From assembly GCF_021917145.1 (NCBI RefSeq), contig NC_061081.1:7197153-7261152 (forward strand): a stretch of DNA of 64,000 nucleotides, read 5' to 3'. The notes under the pieces are model-generated. The model was not told the DNA's origin and did no database searches. It worked only from the letters and a program-made list of their open reading frames with translations. The position numbers and the translations under genes were made by a program. Shown here one piece after another: positions 17,301 through 59,900 of this stretch (its first letter is position 1; each line of letters starts with the position of its first letter). This DNA comes from Hypomesus transpacificus (taxonomy: Eukaryota; Chordata; Actinopteri; Osmeriformes; Osmeridae).

Positions 17301-20300
17301 TCTGTATCATATAAATGTACACCTACACAACAGCTCTCAGACTGGTGGTTGAAAACAGCCTATCTAGACTACAGGATGCCTGTGGTGATCCACTCAAGCC
17401 CTGGGGTGGTTCTGCCACGCATGGAGTTCAATGACAGGCAGGGACAGATGAGGTGAGACCCTCCCCCTCATACGCACACACACACAAACACGTGCTTTTC
17501 CCCTGCTACAATGTGTAGGGTTTGCCGCAAAAATTGTGTAACACACATCCAGCAGCAGTCCTGTGGAAATAAACAGCTTATTGATAAACAATTAGGGTTA
17601 TGCAATGAATCTATTTCTGAAAACTAACAGGTGCACCTAAAAATTAGGAGCTGTGTTTGTAGACAACCACACCAGGTTCCACTACTGTCTGCTTAACACA
17701 AGAAGTGGCTCCAGTGGTTACCAACTATCACCAACATTAGTGAATTGAGGTGTGAAAACATAGCTAGGTGAGTCCCAGTTCAGGATATGGTGTAGGCAAA
17801 ATGAGTTAATGGACCATCCTATCTAGCATCAATGGTACAGGTGGTATAATCATGTGGGGAGTTTTCCAGGCAAACATTATGTTCCCTGATACCAAATGAG
17901 CAATGTTTTGAATGCCACAGCATTTCTCAACATTCTTGCAGATATGGTGTATCCTTGCATGGTTATGAGTTGATTACACGAATACTTCCAGGTGTGTATT
18001 GCCCCATGCACATATTATCTCAGAATGTTCAAGGAAGATGGCGTTCATTTTACACACTCCCCGGACCTTAACCCAAGCATCTTTGGGATATGGAATGAAC
18101 CACTGGTCAATATGAAGAATCTGTTAGATGTCATTGTGCCAGCATTGACTAACATCCCTGTTAAACTCCACCTTGTAAAATCCATGCCCCTGAGAGGGTG
18201 CTCTAAAGGAAAGTCCAACCCTGTACTAGATGGGTGTACCTAATTAACTGATTTGGGAGTTATGAAAGTGATTTCTGTGTACAAGAACATGTCATGACTC
18301 AAATTGCTACCATTTATATTTGTCTGCTGAGTTTTGACAGTATGGCTGAAAATGTAATGAACCAAACTGAGAGCATAGATGGTTAAGCTTTGTTTGTCAC
18401 CAGTTTACAAGAAACACAGATTTAGGCTCCATTAGGTAATGAACAGGTGTTCTGCATTTCTTGGCCATTGTCTTGTCATCTGAGAAGAATGATATTTAAA
18501 AAGAGTCCAGAGTCCAGTCTGTAAAAATACATAATGACAGCATGACTGTCTTGCTCTAAATGGAGCAGGCCACATATAAACTTCTGCCCCAAATAAACAA
18601 AGATTTGCTGTGTCTTTCCTTTACCCTTGTGCCCTGTTGGTAACGGGATGGTATACCATAATGTAGTCACTGTGTGCTTTATACCTTACTACTGTAAAAA
18701 TACATAATGACAGCATGACTGTCTTGCTCTAAATGGAGCAGGCCACATATAAACTTCTGCCCCAAATAAACAAAGATTTGCTGTGTCTTTCCTTTACCCT
18801 TGTGCCCTGTTGGTAACGGGATGGTATACCATAATGTAGTCACTGTGTGCTTTATACCTTACTACTCTAGGCCACGACCTTTGTACACACTAACCTACAG
18901 TCTGCACTGTGATATTAGGAGTATGCTAGCTGACTTATTACATTGACCTTGATGTGATATCAGCTGTCCATAATTGAAGAAAATAAGGCATACAAATCTT
19001 AAATGCATGTTTGTGATTGATTGGTGTGCTTGATTATCATGCACTATATGGAAACCTACAACAATCTCATACCCTCTATACAGATTTGCTGCCAAACTGA
19101 TTGCTGGAGTTCTGGACTTTAAGGCAATGATTGACAAGTGAGTACCACTTCTTTATCCTAGAGGGGACTTTGGCCACCCAGACACAAAGCCACCCGTTAA
19201 AAAGCCATGATAAATTAATCAATCAGATTTAAGGGGATTGCCACAGCAATAGTAATCACTTTCTAATCAATTTCTAAACAGGCTTTAATTATTATTATTC
19301 AGACTTGGTTATAAGAGCTGTTGACATTTGTTTTGATAAACAGATGACAACACATGTCCACACTCTGCACCTACCATTGGGGTCATAGTGTACCAATTAG
19401 CTTGATTTAAGGGCTGCATACTGTATGTTAATACAGTATGCAGCCCACTACATGTTAGTTATTACTTTAAACTATAACGAAGTCTCCACATAATTAAGTA
19501 TGCCCATAAAGCACTGACCTAGGGATCTAGATTTATTTGATTTAATTGAACTTTTCTTTGATCAATCATCAATATCATAATATTATATTCTCATTTGTAA
19601 TAATCCAAGTATGCAGACACAAGCATTGCTTTTGATTATCATTAACATTAACATTGCGATTAACATTGCTTTTGATTATCTTGTCAGTGAGACTGTACCA
19701 GTGGAGTACCTGGGAGGGAAACCTCTGTGTATGCATCAGTACTACCAGATCCTGTCATCCTGTCGCATCCCTGGCCTGAAGCAAGATACAGTGGTCAACC
19801 ATGCCCAGAGCTCCAGACCCCCCACACACATCACTGTGGTTCACAACTTCCAGGTACAGAACACATCTTAACTGAGGTGTGTGTGTGTCTAAGGACATCT
19901 TGCACACATACACCGCTGTAAATTTGCACTATTGGACCAAATCATAAATCATATAAAGTGCCAAAGTATACATGAGTATAACTCTATGTTACACATCTTC
20001 CAGTTCTTTGTGTTGGACGTGTATAACAGTGATGGAACCCCACTGACGGTGGACCAGCTGTACGGGCAGCTGGAGAAGATCTGGAACTCCTCCCTACAGA
20101 CTAACAAGGAGCCAATCGGAATACTGACTTCACAGCATCGCAATACCTGGGGGAAGGCCTACAACAACCTTATCAAGGGTTAACACAGACTGAATACATT
20201 TGATTACTTAGATTTCTTTCTGTCTTGCAGACTTTATTAGGAATAATTTATTGTAATCTCAGATTATGTTCATCTCAAATCTGCAAATGCCTTTTCCTTG

Positions 20301-24488: not shown

Positions 24489-24494
24489 ATTTAG
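24489..24494 (+). repeat. Left target-site duplication of the foldback element
   Basis: ATTTAG immediately before the left terminus, repeated exactly at 27039-27044 after the right terminus. This defines a 6-bp target duplication. Confidence 0.85.
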
Positions 24495-24762
24495 TATGGA
24501 AGCAAATCGTGACCAAAATTCAAATGAAAATGCATTTCCAGAAATGCATTTTCATTTTAAGAATGTGGCTGCATTATTTGACTCATAAATCAAATTAGTA
24601 TTCAATCATCCTATTTGCATTTTCATTTTCTTCTTTAAGACTGCTCATTCTTTCCCTTAATTAAAATGAAAACGAAAAAGACATTTGAAATTTAATTTTC
24701 AAAATATGCCCCAGCAAATAGATACCAAAATTCAATTTGAAATGTAAAATTTGAAAATGAAA

Positions 24763-25032
24763 ATGCATTTCCAGAAATGCATTTTCATTTTAAGAACGTG
24801 GCTGCAAAATCGTGACCACAATTCAAATTCAAATGCATTTCCAGAAATGCATTTTCATTTTCAAGAACGTGGCTGCAAAATCGTGACCACAATTCAAATT
24901 CAAATGCATTTTCAGAAATGCATTTTCATTTTAAGAACGTGGCTGCAAAATCGTGACCACAATTCAAATTCAAATGTATTTCCAGAAATGCATTTTCATT
25001 TTAAGAATGTGGCTGCATTATTTGACTCATAA
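24763..25032. repeat. Subterminal tandem repeats, left arm of the foldback
   Basis: About four copies of a 69-70-bp unit, each holding the small palindrome GCATTTCCAGAAATGC and the phrase AAGAACGTGGCTGCAAAATC. A further copy of the palindrome lies at 24531-24546. A mirror array occupies 26501-26770. Such arrays are candidate transposase-binding sites. An open frame running through them is a by-product of the repeats, not a gene. Confidence 0.85.
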
Positions 25033-25148
25033 ATCAAATTAGTACTGATTAGTACTGAGCGGACATTGCATTTTCATTTTCATGTTCTGCCCGCAAAGAA
25101 CTGCCCATAATTCGAAAACGAAAATGCATTCTGAGCGGCGCAGTTGAG

Positions 25149-25156
25149 TGACGTCA
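25149..25156. promoter_or_regulatory. CRE/ATF-type site TGACGTCA in the left foldback arm
   Basis: A perfect 8-bp CRE palindrome 146 bp upstream of the ORF start codon at 25302, followed by the GC-rich stretch GTAGGGGGCGGTGTG (25207-25221). Together they look like a promoter for the transposase-like ORF. The mirror copy is at 26377-26384. Confidence 0.55.
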
Positions 25157-25301
25157 GTAGCCGCTCTTCTTCAGCTCCCAGCTGACCGAGCTACCCATCT
25201 TGTTCGGTAGGGGGCGGTGTGCACATACGCATTGCATTACATGGCAAATGTGCCGGGAAATTGATTGAATTGCCGGGTCTTTAGAGGAAGCATCACAGAT
25301 C

Positions 25302-25661
25302 ATGGCGCTCCCTCAAATTGTGCAGACACTGATAGAATTAGCTGAGCTGGTAGAAACTAATAATATATCTGAGTCTGATGCCCGTGACCGAGTAGAACAA
25401 GTCACAGAGAGCTTGGCTGCATACTCTGCCGTCACAGACGTACACATTAATGAGGTTGCCATAGTAAACCTCTCTTCAGTCCTGGAACGGCTGGATGCTG
25501 TGGAGCCTCAAATGGGACGGGGACGACCAACCATCCACATCCCGTTCGAGTCCATCGAAAACTATTTATTAAATGGTTTAAAAATAAAGGACATAGCGGA
25601 GCTGTTGTCGGCCACCAGACCATCCGTCGGAGGATGCAAAGCAACGGATTTATGGAGCTAG
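25302..25661 (+). pseudogene. Truncated transposase-like ORF, left foldback arm
   Basis: 119-codon ORF starting MALPQIVQTLIELAELVE. The N-terminal 92 codons lie in the arm and end in the block GRGRPTIHIPFESIENYLL. The last 27 lie in the loop and continue KIKDIAELLS, the start of a helix-turn-helix as in fish integrase-core (IS3EU-like) proteins. After about codon 103 the expected HTH continuation TIRRRMQSNGF appears in another frame at 25618-25650, so a small indel shifts the ORF to a premature stop at 25659-25661. The catalytic integrase part is missing. The ORF is probably a broken exon 1, or a DNA-binding fragment of the parent transposase. Assignment rests on motif resemblance only. Confidence 0.6.
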
Positions 25662-25955
25662 AAAGCTGACAAAAGTATCTGAATTTGAATATGAAAGATC
25701 TGAAATATTTGTGTGTCGAATTTCATAAAACTGAAATATATTGCTGTTGAATATATAATATCTGAATTATTTGTATGCCAAATTTAATACAACTGAATTA
25801 TTTTGATCCAAAAATAAAACATTCTAAAATTCAGATTGCAGGAATTCAGATTCTTGAAATTCAGATTGCGGAAATTCAAATTCAGATTGCGGAAATTCAG
25901 ATTTTGTCTGAACCAGGCCAAAGGTGAAACAGCTTGCTTTCACAGGAAAAAGTAG
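25578..25955. other. Loop (unique spacer) of the foldback element
   Basis: The left 90 bp continue the transposase-like gene past the arm boundary. The middle is AT-rich without features. The right part (25829-25908) is built of short repeats of the phrase AAATTCAGATTGCGG, which give an artefactual SEFPQ-repeat reading frame on the minus strand. The loop therefore joins gene continuation to unrelated filler, as expected if the inner breakpoint arose by end-joining or template switching. Confidence 0.7.
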
Positions 25956-26231
25956 ACCATTTAATAAATAGTTCTCGATGGACTCGAACGGGATGTGGAT
26001 GGTTGGTCGTCCCCGTCCCATTTGAGGCTCCACAGCATCCAGCCGTTCCAGGACTGAAGAGAGGTTTACTATGGCAACCTCATTAATGTGTACGTCTGTG
26101 ACGGCAGAGTATGCAGCCAAGCTCTCTGTGACTTGTTCTACTCGGTCACGGGCATCAGACTCAGATATATTATTAGTTTCTACCAGCTCAGCTAATTCTA
26201 TCAGTGTCTGCACAATTTGAGGGAGCGCCAT
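25824..26231 (-). pseudogene. Truncated transposase-like ORF, right foldback arm (mirror copy)
   Basis: Minus-strand twin of the ORF at 25302. Its start codon is at 26231-26229, and its first 92 codons are the same as the left copy's. Past the arm boundary at 25956 it reads into loop filler (LVQTKSEFPQ and similar repeats) rather than the HTH, and ends after 135 codons. It is a fragment created by the inverted duplication, with no domain of its own beyond the shared N-terminus. Confidence 0.6.
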
Positions 26232-26376
26232 GATCTGTGATGCTTCCTCTAAAGACCCGGCAATTCAATCAATTTCCCGGCACATTTGCCATGTAATGCA
26301 ATGCGTATGTGCACACCGCCCCCTACCGAACAAGATGGGTAGCTCGGTCAGCTGGGAGCTGAAGAAGAGCGGCTAC

Positions 26377-26384
26377 TGACGTCA
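26377..26384. promoter_or_regulatory. CRE/ATF-type site TGACGTCA in the right foldback arm
   Basis: Exact mirror of the site at 25149-25156, at the position predicted by the palindrome centre. It would drive the minus-strand ORF toward the loop. Confidence 0.5.
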
Positions 26385-26500
26385 CTCAACTGCGCCGCTC
26401 AGAATGCATTTTCGTTTTCGAATTATGGGCAGTTCTTTGCGGGCAGAACATGAAAATGAAAATGCAATGTCCGCTCAGTACTAATCAGTACTAATTTGAT

Positions 26501-26770
26501 TTATGAGTCAAATAATGCAGCCACATTCTTAAAATGAAAATGCATTTCTGGAAATACATTTGAATTTGAATTGTGGTCACGATTTTGCAGCCACGTTCTT
26601 AAAATGAAAATGCATTTCTGAAAATGCATTTGAATTTGAATTGTGGTCACGATTTTGCAGCCACGTTCTTGAAAATGAAAATGCATTTCTGGAAATGCAT
26701 TTGAATTTGAATTGTGGTCACGATTTTGCAGCCACGTTCTTAAAATGAAAATGCATTTCTGGAAATGCAT
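26501..26770. repeat. Subterminal tandem repeats, right arm of the foldback
   Basis: Inverted copy of the array at 24763-25032, including the same unit-specific variants (one unit with TTCAGAAATG, one with an extra C before AAGAACG, one with TGTATT). Confidence 0.85.
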
Positions 26771-27038
26771 TTTCATTTTCAAATTTTACATTTCAAATTG
26801 AATTTTGGTATCTATTTGCAGGGGCATATTTTGAAAATTAAATTTCAAATGTCTTTTTCGTTTTCATTTTAATGAAGGGAAAGAATGAGCAGTCTTAAAG
26901 AAGAAAATGAAAATGCAAATAGGATGATTGAATACTAATTTGATTTATGAGTCAAATAATGCAGCCACATTCTTAAAATGAAAATGCATTTCTGGAAATG
27001 CATTTTCATTTGAATTTTGATCACGATTTGCTTCCATA

Positions 27039-27044
27039 ATTTAG
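27039..27044 (+). repeat. Right target-site duplication of the foldback element
   Basis: ATTTAG directly after the right terminus, identical to 24489-24494. Confidence 0.85.
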
Positions 27045-27149
27045 AAGGCTACTCAGTCACCTATGTCTGTCAGCCAGGTAGACTCAGGGTAGTCTATTCC
27101 GTTTACCATACCTTTAAACGTCATTTCTGATACGTCAACGCGGCACTTG

Positions 27150-27158
27150 CCGGAAGTG
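27150..27158 (+). promoter_or_regulatory. ETS-family site in the gpr107 core promoter
   Basis: CCGGAAGTG, a consensus ETS (GABPA/ELK) site, 26 bp upstream of the gpr107 ATG. Such sites near start codons are typical of TATA-less housekeeping promoters. Only 112 bp separate it from the foldback terminus. Confidence 0.6.
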
Positions 27159-27183
27159 AATCCAAAAACGCTTTAATAGAAAA

Positions 27184-35585
<8,402 letters not shown>

Positions 35586-56900: not shown

Positions 56901-59900
56901 ATCCTGGCAGATGCGCTTATCGTTGGCAACTGTAACAACCAGGTATTAACTTATTGTGATTTATTGAAAGATTGTAGCAGTACTGTGAACACTCTATTTT
57001 GTCTTTTGTGTGGTTTGATCTGTTTCTATCCCATTTGAAACCGTCTTTCTTATTGTCTCAAGTTTGTTGTTTGATTTATTCTGTAACTGTTCCCATCTGG
57101 TATTGGGAAAGTACACTTGTAATGTAATAGTACATTTCAAACCAAACATTTATTTTTGGTTTTCATTGTCTGCCACAACCCCATGGTATATGGCTAGTAA
57201 ATAAAAGTATATAAACCTTTGGATAAGTAAATTAATAAGGCAGCTTGGTGATCTTTCATCCAAGTTTGATTTGATCTAATGTAATTGGGACAAATCAGGT
57301 TGCTGCTTTGACCTGCTCTCAAACCTGACTGAAATTTGCTTAAAATGTTTTTCTTGCTCAAATAATAAGGCATTGTTTAGAAATACAATAAAAACCCATC
57401 ACATTTCCAAAATATTTAACATTCTAAACCTGTTTCTCTCCAATTCTTTTTTATAATTTTTTTTTTTGGTAGGTGAAATTCAGTGAGCTAACTATCGACA
57501 TGTTTCGCATGCTTCAAGCTTTAGAACGGGAACCGGTCAATCTGGCTATTCAAACAACTAAAACAGGGTCATTGGTAAGTGTAACACACCATGAGTGTCT
57601 TTCATCTCTCTAATAATGCCAGGAGTGTGTGTGTGTGTCTGTGAATTTTTTTGAATGGGATTTTAGGGCAGCGAGTTTCCACGATTATCTCAAGAACTGG
57701 GCATAAAGTTCATATTTTGCAGGTGTTGTTTTTTAAATCCAATGGAGTGGAGTGACACGTTTGATGTTGTTGGATAAGCATTTCCCAAAAATAATTTGCC
57801 ACCGGTTTTGCGATGGATCTTTTTCAGCCATGTTCAGCTCGCACGATACGTTTCACGAAGCACTTGGACTTTCTATGTACTAGAGATAGGAGGCTGTATG
57901 ATAACTTCAGTGAATTAAGTTTAGTTAATGAACAAATGTGATTAACAAAGGCATTTGTAATGAAATGAAATTAAGCGCTTAACGCACCAGAGTTCGTAGT
58001 AAGGAAAATACGGACATTTTGTTTGCTCTCTTCGCGGGCAAATGAATCAGCTGCTTTCAAACGTTTTTTTATGGATGAAATGCTGGGTTGCTAACAGAAC
58101 AACACTATAAATTGATTGTAGAACTTTAAGGTATTCAAGCTGCAAAAAAATACATTCCTTTGTGGAAAAGTCAGTTGGCTGGGCAGTGAGGGAGTCGGGC
58201 TAGTAATCTGAAGGTTGCCAGTTCGATTCCCAGCCGTGTCAAATGACGTTGTGTCCTTGGGCAAGGCACTTCACCCTACTTGCTTCGGGGAGAATATCCC
58301 TGTACTTACTGTAAGTCGCTCTGGATAAGAGCGTCTGCTAAATGACTAAATGTAAAAGTTTACAAATTATATGTATTTGTATTTCTTTATAGGAACCTAG
58401 TGAGAAGCCAGCTAAGAGAGAAAATCCTCACAAGTATTTACTGTACAAGCCGACATTCAGCCAGCTATACACTTTCCTGTCTGCCTCTTTTAAGGTCTGT
58501 TTCTAATGAGACACTTCGTCTGCTCATTTTCGATAAATTTATTTTGTCAAATCTCAATTTCATCATTTATTTGATCTGATCAGTGTATATATATGTTATT
58601 TTGGTGTCATCATTTGATCTGATCAGTGTATATATATATATATATATATATATAGGGAAATTGTCTGAATTCTAATTTAAATTATGGTATTTTGTAGGAA
58701 TTACCAGCAAACAGTGTGCTGCTTGTCTATATCTCAGCCACTGGAGTCTTTCCTACAGGACGCTCAGATTATGAGGGTATGTAGGGCCTTGAGCCTTGTT
58801 TTTGTTATAAATTATGTCATATGTATTTTTGAAGAAAACACAGGCATTAGCTAATATGTGCTGTATGAATGACACACCTTAGTCAAATCATTCATTTTGC
58901 CACTCATATGATGAATAGGTAGTCATGCTGGAAGTGGTAGTCACATAAGAATAGTATTTTGCCATGTGTGATTATATTAATGAGATCAGGGTCATTGTCT
59001 TAAAATGTTCTCTTGGTTTGATGACTTGAACTTCCATTTTTTCATAGGGCCATATGACTTTGGAGGAGTTCTTACTAACACAAATCGAGATGTGGTGAAT
59101 GGGGAGACACAGCAGAAAAGAAACAATGCCCAGAAAGAAATGCACTGGTAAGAATGAGTTAGTCAATACAGCGTTTAGCTATCTTGCAGTTATTTTAGGA
59201 CCAACTGAGTATACATATTATACATGTCCTTACAAATATGTATTGTTTTATATGAATAACTTAAATTTGCAAAGTTTTTATGTATTTTCTGTTTGCAATG
59301 TGCCCAAGCCTTCACCCCGGAGACTTGTTCCCTTTCACCCGGAAGCCGCTGTTTGTCATAGTGGACTCTTCCAACAGCACAGCCTATAAGGTTTGTTACA
59401 TTGATTTACTTTTTTTTTTTTTTATTGACCATATGTCAAAGTATGTAATAATAATTTGAGAAGGTTCAATCCCATACACCAGGGTTCTCTAATCCTGGTC
59501 CTTGAGGGCAGCTGTCCTGTAGGTTTTAGATATTCCCTGCTCCAGCACACCTGTTTCAAATGAATGGGTTGTTATCAAGCTCTGTGGAAGCCGGGTAATG
59601 ACCATTCATTTGTATCAGGTGTGCTGGAGCAGGGAAACATCTAAAACATACAGGACAGCTGCCCTCAAGGACCAGGATTGGAGAATCCTGCCATACACCA
59701 TATGGACAAAAGTATAAACACCAGACCATCACACCTTATATGAGTTGGTTGGACATCCCATTCCAAAACCATGAGCATTTAAATGGACTTGCCCCCCGTA
59801 TGGTGTTATAACAGCTGCCACTCTTCTGGGAAGGCTGTCTACAAGATTTTGGATTGTGAATGTGTGCCTATTCAGTCACAAGAGCCTTAGAGAGGTTGGG

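Follow-up and report, generated by a model that had tools for sequence, protein, structure and literature searches.

The inverted sequence at positions 24495-27038 of the analysed window, the whole stretch of 64,000 nucleotides taken from the genome of Hypomesus transpacificus (assembly GCF_021917145.1, contig NC_061081.1, positions 7,197,153-7,261,152), is very probably one copy of a young, high-copy foldback family that is non-autonomous and descends from an IS3EU-like DNA transposon. The palindrome comprises 2544 bp, of which 2166 bp are contributed by inverted arms. The left arm (24495-25577, plus strand, 1083 bp), which is present in 32 genome elements, begins with TATGGAAGC... and contains the terminus, a tandem array of 3.7 units of about 70 bp that is related to the terminal region (24761-25017, plus strand), a 5' leader and the first 92 codons of a transposase-like open reading frame (ORF). 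The right arm (25956-27038, minus strand, 1083 bp) is an inverted copy of the left arm and carries the corresponding tandem array at 26516-26772 (minus strand). Both arms align without gaps, 24495-25577 against the reverse complement 27038-25956, with four mismatches at the position pairs 24513/27020, 24659/26874, 24713/26820 and 25559/25974; the self-match has an E-value of 0.0 and lies far above chance. The 378-bp loop (25578-25955) holds the remainder of a coding stretch that by eye resembles a helix-turn-helix, followed by AT-rich repeats. A 119-aa ORF starting with MALPQ (25302-25661, plus strand) represents a transposase-like N-terminal part and is frameshifted in the loop relative to an older element at locus L026, and a 135-aa ORF (25824-26231, minus strand) spans the border between right arm and loop; a complete transposase gene is absent from the window copy. 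The target-site duplication (TSD) ATTTAG flanks the element on the left (24489-24494) and on the right (27039-27044). Arm length, number of mismatches, loop length and flanking ATTTAG had been described in an earlier note on this DNA and are all exact to the base on realignment. Outside the ATTTAG duplications palindromy stops, which speaks against the locus being a fold-back artefact of assembly. The tandem units in the arms are similar (81-86%) to the terminal region of the element itself and may provide extra sites for a transposase, a role that the Tetris paper (PMC4079207) ascribes to those of Galileo.

A 30-base pattern spanning the junction of loop and right arm (25944-25973, plus strand), used as a copy-number tag with up to two mismatches allowed, was found at 170 places in the 437.2-Mb genome of 376 contigs (99 forward, 71 reverse), some of which may be truncated copies, while the reversed pattern used as control gave no match. 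Querying the genome with the left arm, for which the best 40 of 504 candidate stretches were scored, gave 99-100% identity over 1076-1083 bp, and these 40 arms resolved into 32 elements, i.e., the window copy and 31 fetched loci (L-numbered). As these elements were picked by likeness to the left arm of the window copy, their divergence and age are biased low. All 32 elements carry the termini TATGGAAG...CTTCCATA (TATGG...CCATA), exactly 2544 bp are found in 15 of them, and 23 deviate by at most 11 bp from this length. The proposal, made from the window alone, that the palindrome transposes as a unit is borne out by perfect 6-bp TSDs in 31 of the 32 copies, all of which differ from one another; L039 is the sole element without a matching TSD. 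Statistics on the arms were performed with 28 of the 32 elements, leaving out L025 (length filter, 2480 bp), L030 (insertion) as well as L038 and L039 (truncated), and these 28 full-length copies are 0.16-0.63% distant from their consensus. Two copies, L035 and L036, occupy different sites with different TSDs and show no substitution between them. A search for empty sites revealed that the joined flanks of L016, L021, L027 and L033 align continuously elsewhere with at least 91% identity over 169-394 bp, weaker continuous matches (79-89%; L011, L016, L021, L022, L025) being excluded from this count. The best of these cases are L027, whose flanks are contiguous in L038 and contain TCGCTA once (99.5% over 394 bp), and L033, whose flanks are contiguous in L026 and L019 (97.3% over 224 bp). 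Junction matches, distinct TSDs, empty sites and low divergence together indicate frequent and recent transposition of the entire palindrome. The idea of an event specific to the window locus does not hold, given that the palindrome with its 170 junction matches predates the burst. With the arm of the older relative as query (40 of 495 candidates scored), more young-type copies were obtained, as well as older relatives that are 90-95% identical to this query. At the 31 insertion sites G or C occurs 3 bp outside each TSD end (26/31 and 25/31 as raw counts), which may point to a weak palindromic target preference.

The window copy lies between exons of a carnitine acyltransferase gene upstream and exons of a GOST-type seven-transmembrane protein downstream, the latter with GOST_TM (PF06814) in the ORFs at 31380 and 31719; we read these genes as crat and gpr107, respectively. 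A likely first coding exon of the gpr107-like gene, delimited by the position of the ATG and by a splice site assigned by eye, is located at 27184-27279 (plus strand), and we presume that it belongs to the GOST_TM exons. Its start codon is situated 146 bp downstream of the insertion (27038-27184), and the element therefore may affect a host promoter; the insertion probably sits in the promoter or the 5' leader of this gene. Other repeats in the window are a 173-bp unit present as two tandem repeats (18519-18866) and a 211-bp self-complementary, MITE-like hairpin that is 84.5% identical to its own reverse complement (59480-59690). A 962-aa open frame at 1-2900 presumably encodes a non-LTR retrotransposon endonuclease/reverse transcriptase.

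The affinity to IS3EU is suggested by termini and target sites. According to the IS3EU sources (PMC10045372, PMC12730594, PMC10853768), published elements have TA..TA ends and usually a 6-bp TSD (PMC10045372), those of rust fungi have TAYGG..CCRTA termini and terminal inverted repeats (TIRs) longer than 30 bp (PMC12730594), and the related Styx has 36-bp TIRs. The foldback copies share the 6-bp TSD (31/32) and, in all 32 copies, ends of the TA..TA and TAYGG..CCRTA type. They differ in their 1083-bp arms, compared with the published TIRs of more than 30 bp (rust fungi) and 36 bp (Styx), and in carrying the 5' end of the transposase as an inverted duplicate. The arm ORF starts with MALPQ and runs for 92 codons until the arm ends. 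In the older element of L026 this frame continues through the helix-turn-helix-like stretch (by eye), in which the window copy lacks 4 bp and is frameshifted. The intact 34-base stretch, searched with up to three mismatches, is present at 20 places in the genome, and at two of these, C19 (around 14.747 Mb) and C365 (around 0.763 Mb), pieces of the integrase core rva_4 follow on the same strand about 1.7 kb downstream of the arm reading frame. We take rva_4 to be the IS3EU catalytic core. A DNA search with the 3' part of this rva_4-bearing gene retrieved only C19 and C365, which are 97% alike. Each of them has at least one rva_4 piece with an in-frame stop, and the leader at C19 is interrupted, with a 51-bp piece 100% identical to arm positions 599-649; the sequence bordering this piece on both sides also occurs within the older L026 element. 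Due to these stops and the interrupted leader, both relatives look inactive. An intact autonomous partner of the exact foldback family was not found, both transposase-bearing places having an rva_4 stop. At C19, 2151 bp starting about 170 bp past the last rva_4 piece, compared as two pieces, resemble neither the young nor the old element, so that its right end is located farther out or was lost.

Scoring of 150 of 273 candidates gave at least 151 rva_4 matches in the genome, many of them open, compared with none in 14 control genomes. This abundance of often open rva_4 copies makes a transposase source that acts on the foldback family in trans plausible. Among the matches listed (150 of 273 candidates scored), none lies inside the 32 foldback elements. 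Five near-identical rva_4 pieces are found within 150 kb at G000:C14:3076262-3226046, perhaps by local amplification. The locus with the best rva_4 match, L040, was rejected as a relative because it has no arm similarity, and L030 was rejected as a longer parent because its extra 3.4 kb sits inside the loop; the ORFs in this extra segment look hAT-like to us. Relatives of the arm ORF were not detected in the genome-contig and viral-contig collections, the terminal pattern had no match in the viral-contig collection, and Pfam profiles gave sub-threshold matches only on the arm ORF.

The near-identity of the arms had been attributed in the earlier note to a recent event. As plain recency this is not borne out, since the arms appear to exchange sequence with each other. 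Arms diverging independently after a single founding event would be expected to be as distant within a copy as between copies, with each variant confined to one side. In the 28 copies, the mean difference between the two arms of a copy is 5.57 compared with 6.65 for arms of different copies, a value reached in 1 of 20000 permutations; for 24 representatives the values are 5.17 within copies and 6.47 between them, with 0 of 20000 permutations being as low. On average, the partner arm of the same copy ranks at 0.41 instead of the expected 0.5, which is a modest but real excess. Out of 83 variants, 24 occur in two or more arms and 15 of these 24 are found on left and right arms alike. Four variants (in arm coordinates, 686A in the window copy, 452A in L023, 934T in L028 and 419T in L033) are private to one copy among the 28 and yet present in both of its arms, where 0.013 are expected. 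Moreover, the left arm of L034 and L011 contains the right-arm marker 1065G and 83 bp of the loop before it returns to the arm end, which we interpret as the overshoot of a copying tract. This derivative with an added 83-bp inverted loop end has itself transposed and is present in two copies with different TSDs (L011:7028-9701 and L034:1000-3645). As judged from both-arm variants, private pairs and this overshoot, arm-to-arm gene conversion is likely; assembly polishing could spread variants from one arm to the other and thereby imitate part of the signal. The marker 1065G is seen in 13 of 28 right arms and in 0 of 28 left arms as aligned, so exchange seldom reaches the innermost part of the arm. 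Haplotypes are also mosaic between copies, and some change sides (L015/L019 relative to L017/L027). A simple flip of the loop by crossover was rejected, as these changes of side are not a clean reciprocal swap, and for this reason we speak of exchange rather than inversion.

How the palindrome may have originated is indicated by the older inverted element at L026:3070-6694, the left half of which is 91% identical and which has the TSD CCAAAC on both sides. Its right arm is shorter, beginning at arm position 906, and by eye it appears without a tandem array and with a foreign insert. The loop of this element passes GTAGAC (GTAGACGATTTCAG..., 747 further bases) before the inverted right arm is reached. 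In those young copies that were aligned, GTAGAC abuts on arm position 1083 (GTAGACCATTTAATAAATAG), where the old element keeps GTAGACGATTTCAG. Both sides of the young junction share AC(G/C)ATTT, a 7-bp imperfect microhomology (ACGATTT/ACCATTT). We infer that the palindrome arose once, which is suggested by the one common junction at 170 places, and through a template switch: on leaving the loop, synthesis would have turned back to the left arm by way of ACGATTT/ACCATTT. An IS3EU transposase would then move the palindrome in trans by binding to its termini and perhaps to the terminal-like tandem units. The arms would repeatedly be copied from each other, by gene conversion and synthesis-dependent repair, so that they are kept alike and can lengthen. 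Arms that reach 906 in the older relative (right arm), 1083 in the burst copies and 1083 plus 83 bp in the L011/L034 derivative would fit such a lengthening ratchet if these stages followed one another in this order. The earlier claim that the 5' end of a gene-bearing element was copied in inverse orientation onto the other end stands, as terminus, tandem array and gene start are all included; the replacement of the 3' half, which had been part of the same claim, may have been stepwise, because the L026 relative is already inverted with a shorter right arm.

Long palindromes are difficult to assemble, and the whole structure could in principle be an assembly artefact; the matching TSDs of 31 of the 32 copies, each in a different flanking context, and an identical junction at 170 places make this extremely improbable. 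The main rival to the template switch is a fusion of two neighbouring elements of opposite orientation by loss of the DNA between them. It would likewise yield one common junction, and neighbouring copies do exist, as in L026, where an old and a young element lie next to each other, but the loop continues the left-arm sequence as it does in the old L026 element and the right junction carries the short imperfect microhomology, so that we regard a fusion as less likely than the template switch.

That arms are alike through youth alone, with both-arm variants stemming from recurrent mutation or from recombination between different copies, would be compatible with the small distance of merely 0.16-0.63% from the consensus and with the mosaic haplotypes between copies. 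Against this stand the four private both-arm variants versus 0.013 expected (private among the 28 copies only), the 1 in 20000 permutations and the 83-bp overshoot in L034/L011, which reads as inter-arm copying, and youth alone is accordingly considered improbable relative to arm-to-arm conversion. Finally, the family might act on its parent, either by a hairpin RNA that silences the transposase gene, similar to Mu killer, or by a repressing 92-aa N-terminal fragment. Leader and gene start are inverted in the arms, and 170 palindrome junctions are opposed to two places with the 3' part of the parent gene. The start motif was matched in 59 of 64 arms, and in each of these 59 the frame stays open over 90 aa or more; the five others are the truncated L038L and L039L as well as L013R, L017L and L027L, which vary inside the motif and are not necessarily broken. 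The variants in the ORF, 7 synonymous, 20 non-synonymous and 0 stop, are in proportions near the neutral expectation (0.27/0.69/0.03) and show no sign of selection, for which reason the ORF looks like a passenger and selection for a repressor function was discarded as unsupported. An action on the parent by either route is therefore doubtful in our view. Extended further, this idea would make the family a mobile counterpart of Mu killer, which reportedly acts on MuDR: an inverted duplication of leader and gene start would have become a successful transposon, its hairpin transcripts would silence the parent, and arm copying would preserve the palindrome and ratchet its arms longer (906, 1083, 1083 plus 83). 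This is a speculative and rather improbable scenario.

Despite the instability expected of long palindromes, the one described here reached 170 junction matches, and 23 of the 32 elements, a sample picked by likeness to the window arm, remain near 2544 bp. The family is a natural and countable record of how foldback arms stay alike and grow. It shares with foldback and other long-TIR elements that inverted arms account for most of the length, that they contain tandem repeats and that the transposase gene is incomplete. Galileo, a member of the P superfamily in Drosophila, likewise has long TIRs with internal tandem repeats that recruit internal and coding sequence, and chimeric copies are reported (PMC3573991, PMC4168063); on the basis of chimeric and extended copies, its authors propose that break repair from the other arm extends the TIRs (PMC3573991). 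According to these sources, Galileo differs in its P-type transposase and 7-8-bp TSD (PMC4168063), compared with 6 bp here, in recruiting a 69-bp ORF end, whereas leader and 92 first codons are recruited here, and in its strongly variable TIR length, whereas 23 of 32 copies deviate by at most 11 bp from 2544 bp here. Tetris/Foldback elements are also non-autonomous foldbacks with tandem units that are partly derived from the terminal domain, but Tetris has an 8-10-bp TSD instead of the 6 bp observed here, is suggested to be related to Mutator and is represented by three structurally complete copies only (PMC4079207). Mu killer of maize is comparable in that part of a transposase gene is duplicated in inverted form and accompanied by copies of its terminal repeat; silencing is reported there, while the family described here is mobile and abundant (PMC3440606). 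A search of the open-access literature, covering titles and the openings of abstracts, revealed no IS3EU foldback among the papers listed. The foldback kind as such is already known from Foldback, Galileo and Tetris, and its origin from IS3EU, as read from sequence comparison, appears to be new as far as these searches show, by which IS3EU would join the superfamilies that give rise to foldback elements.
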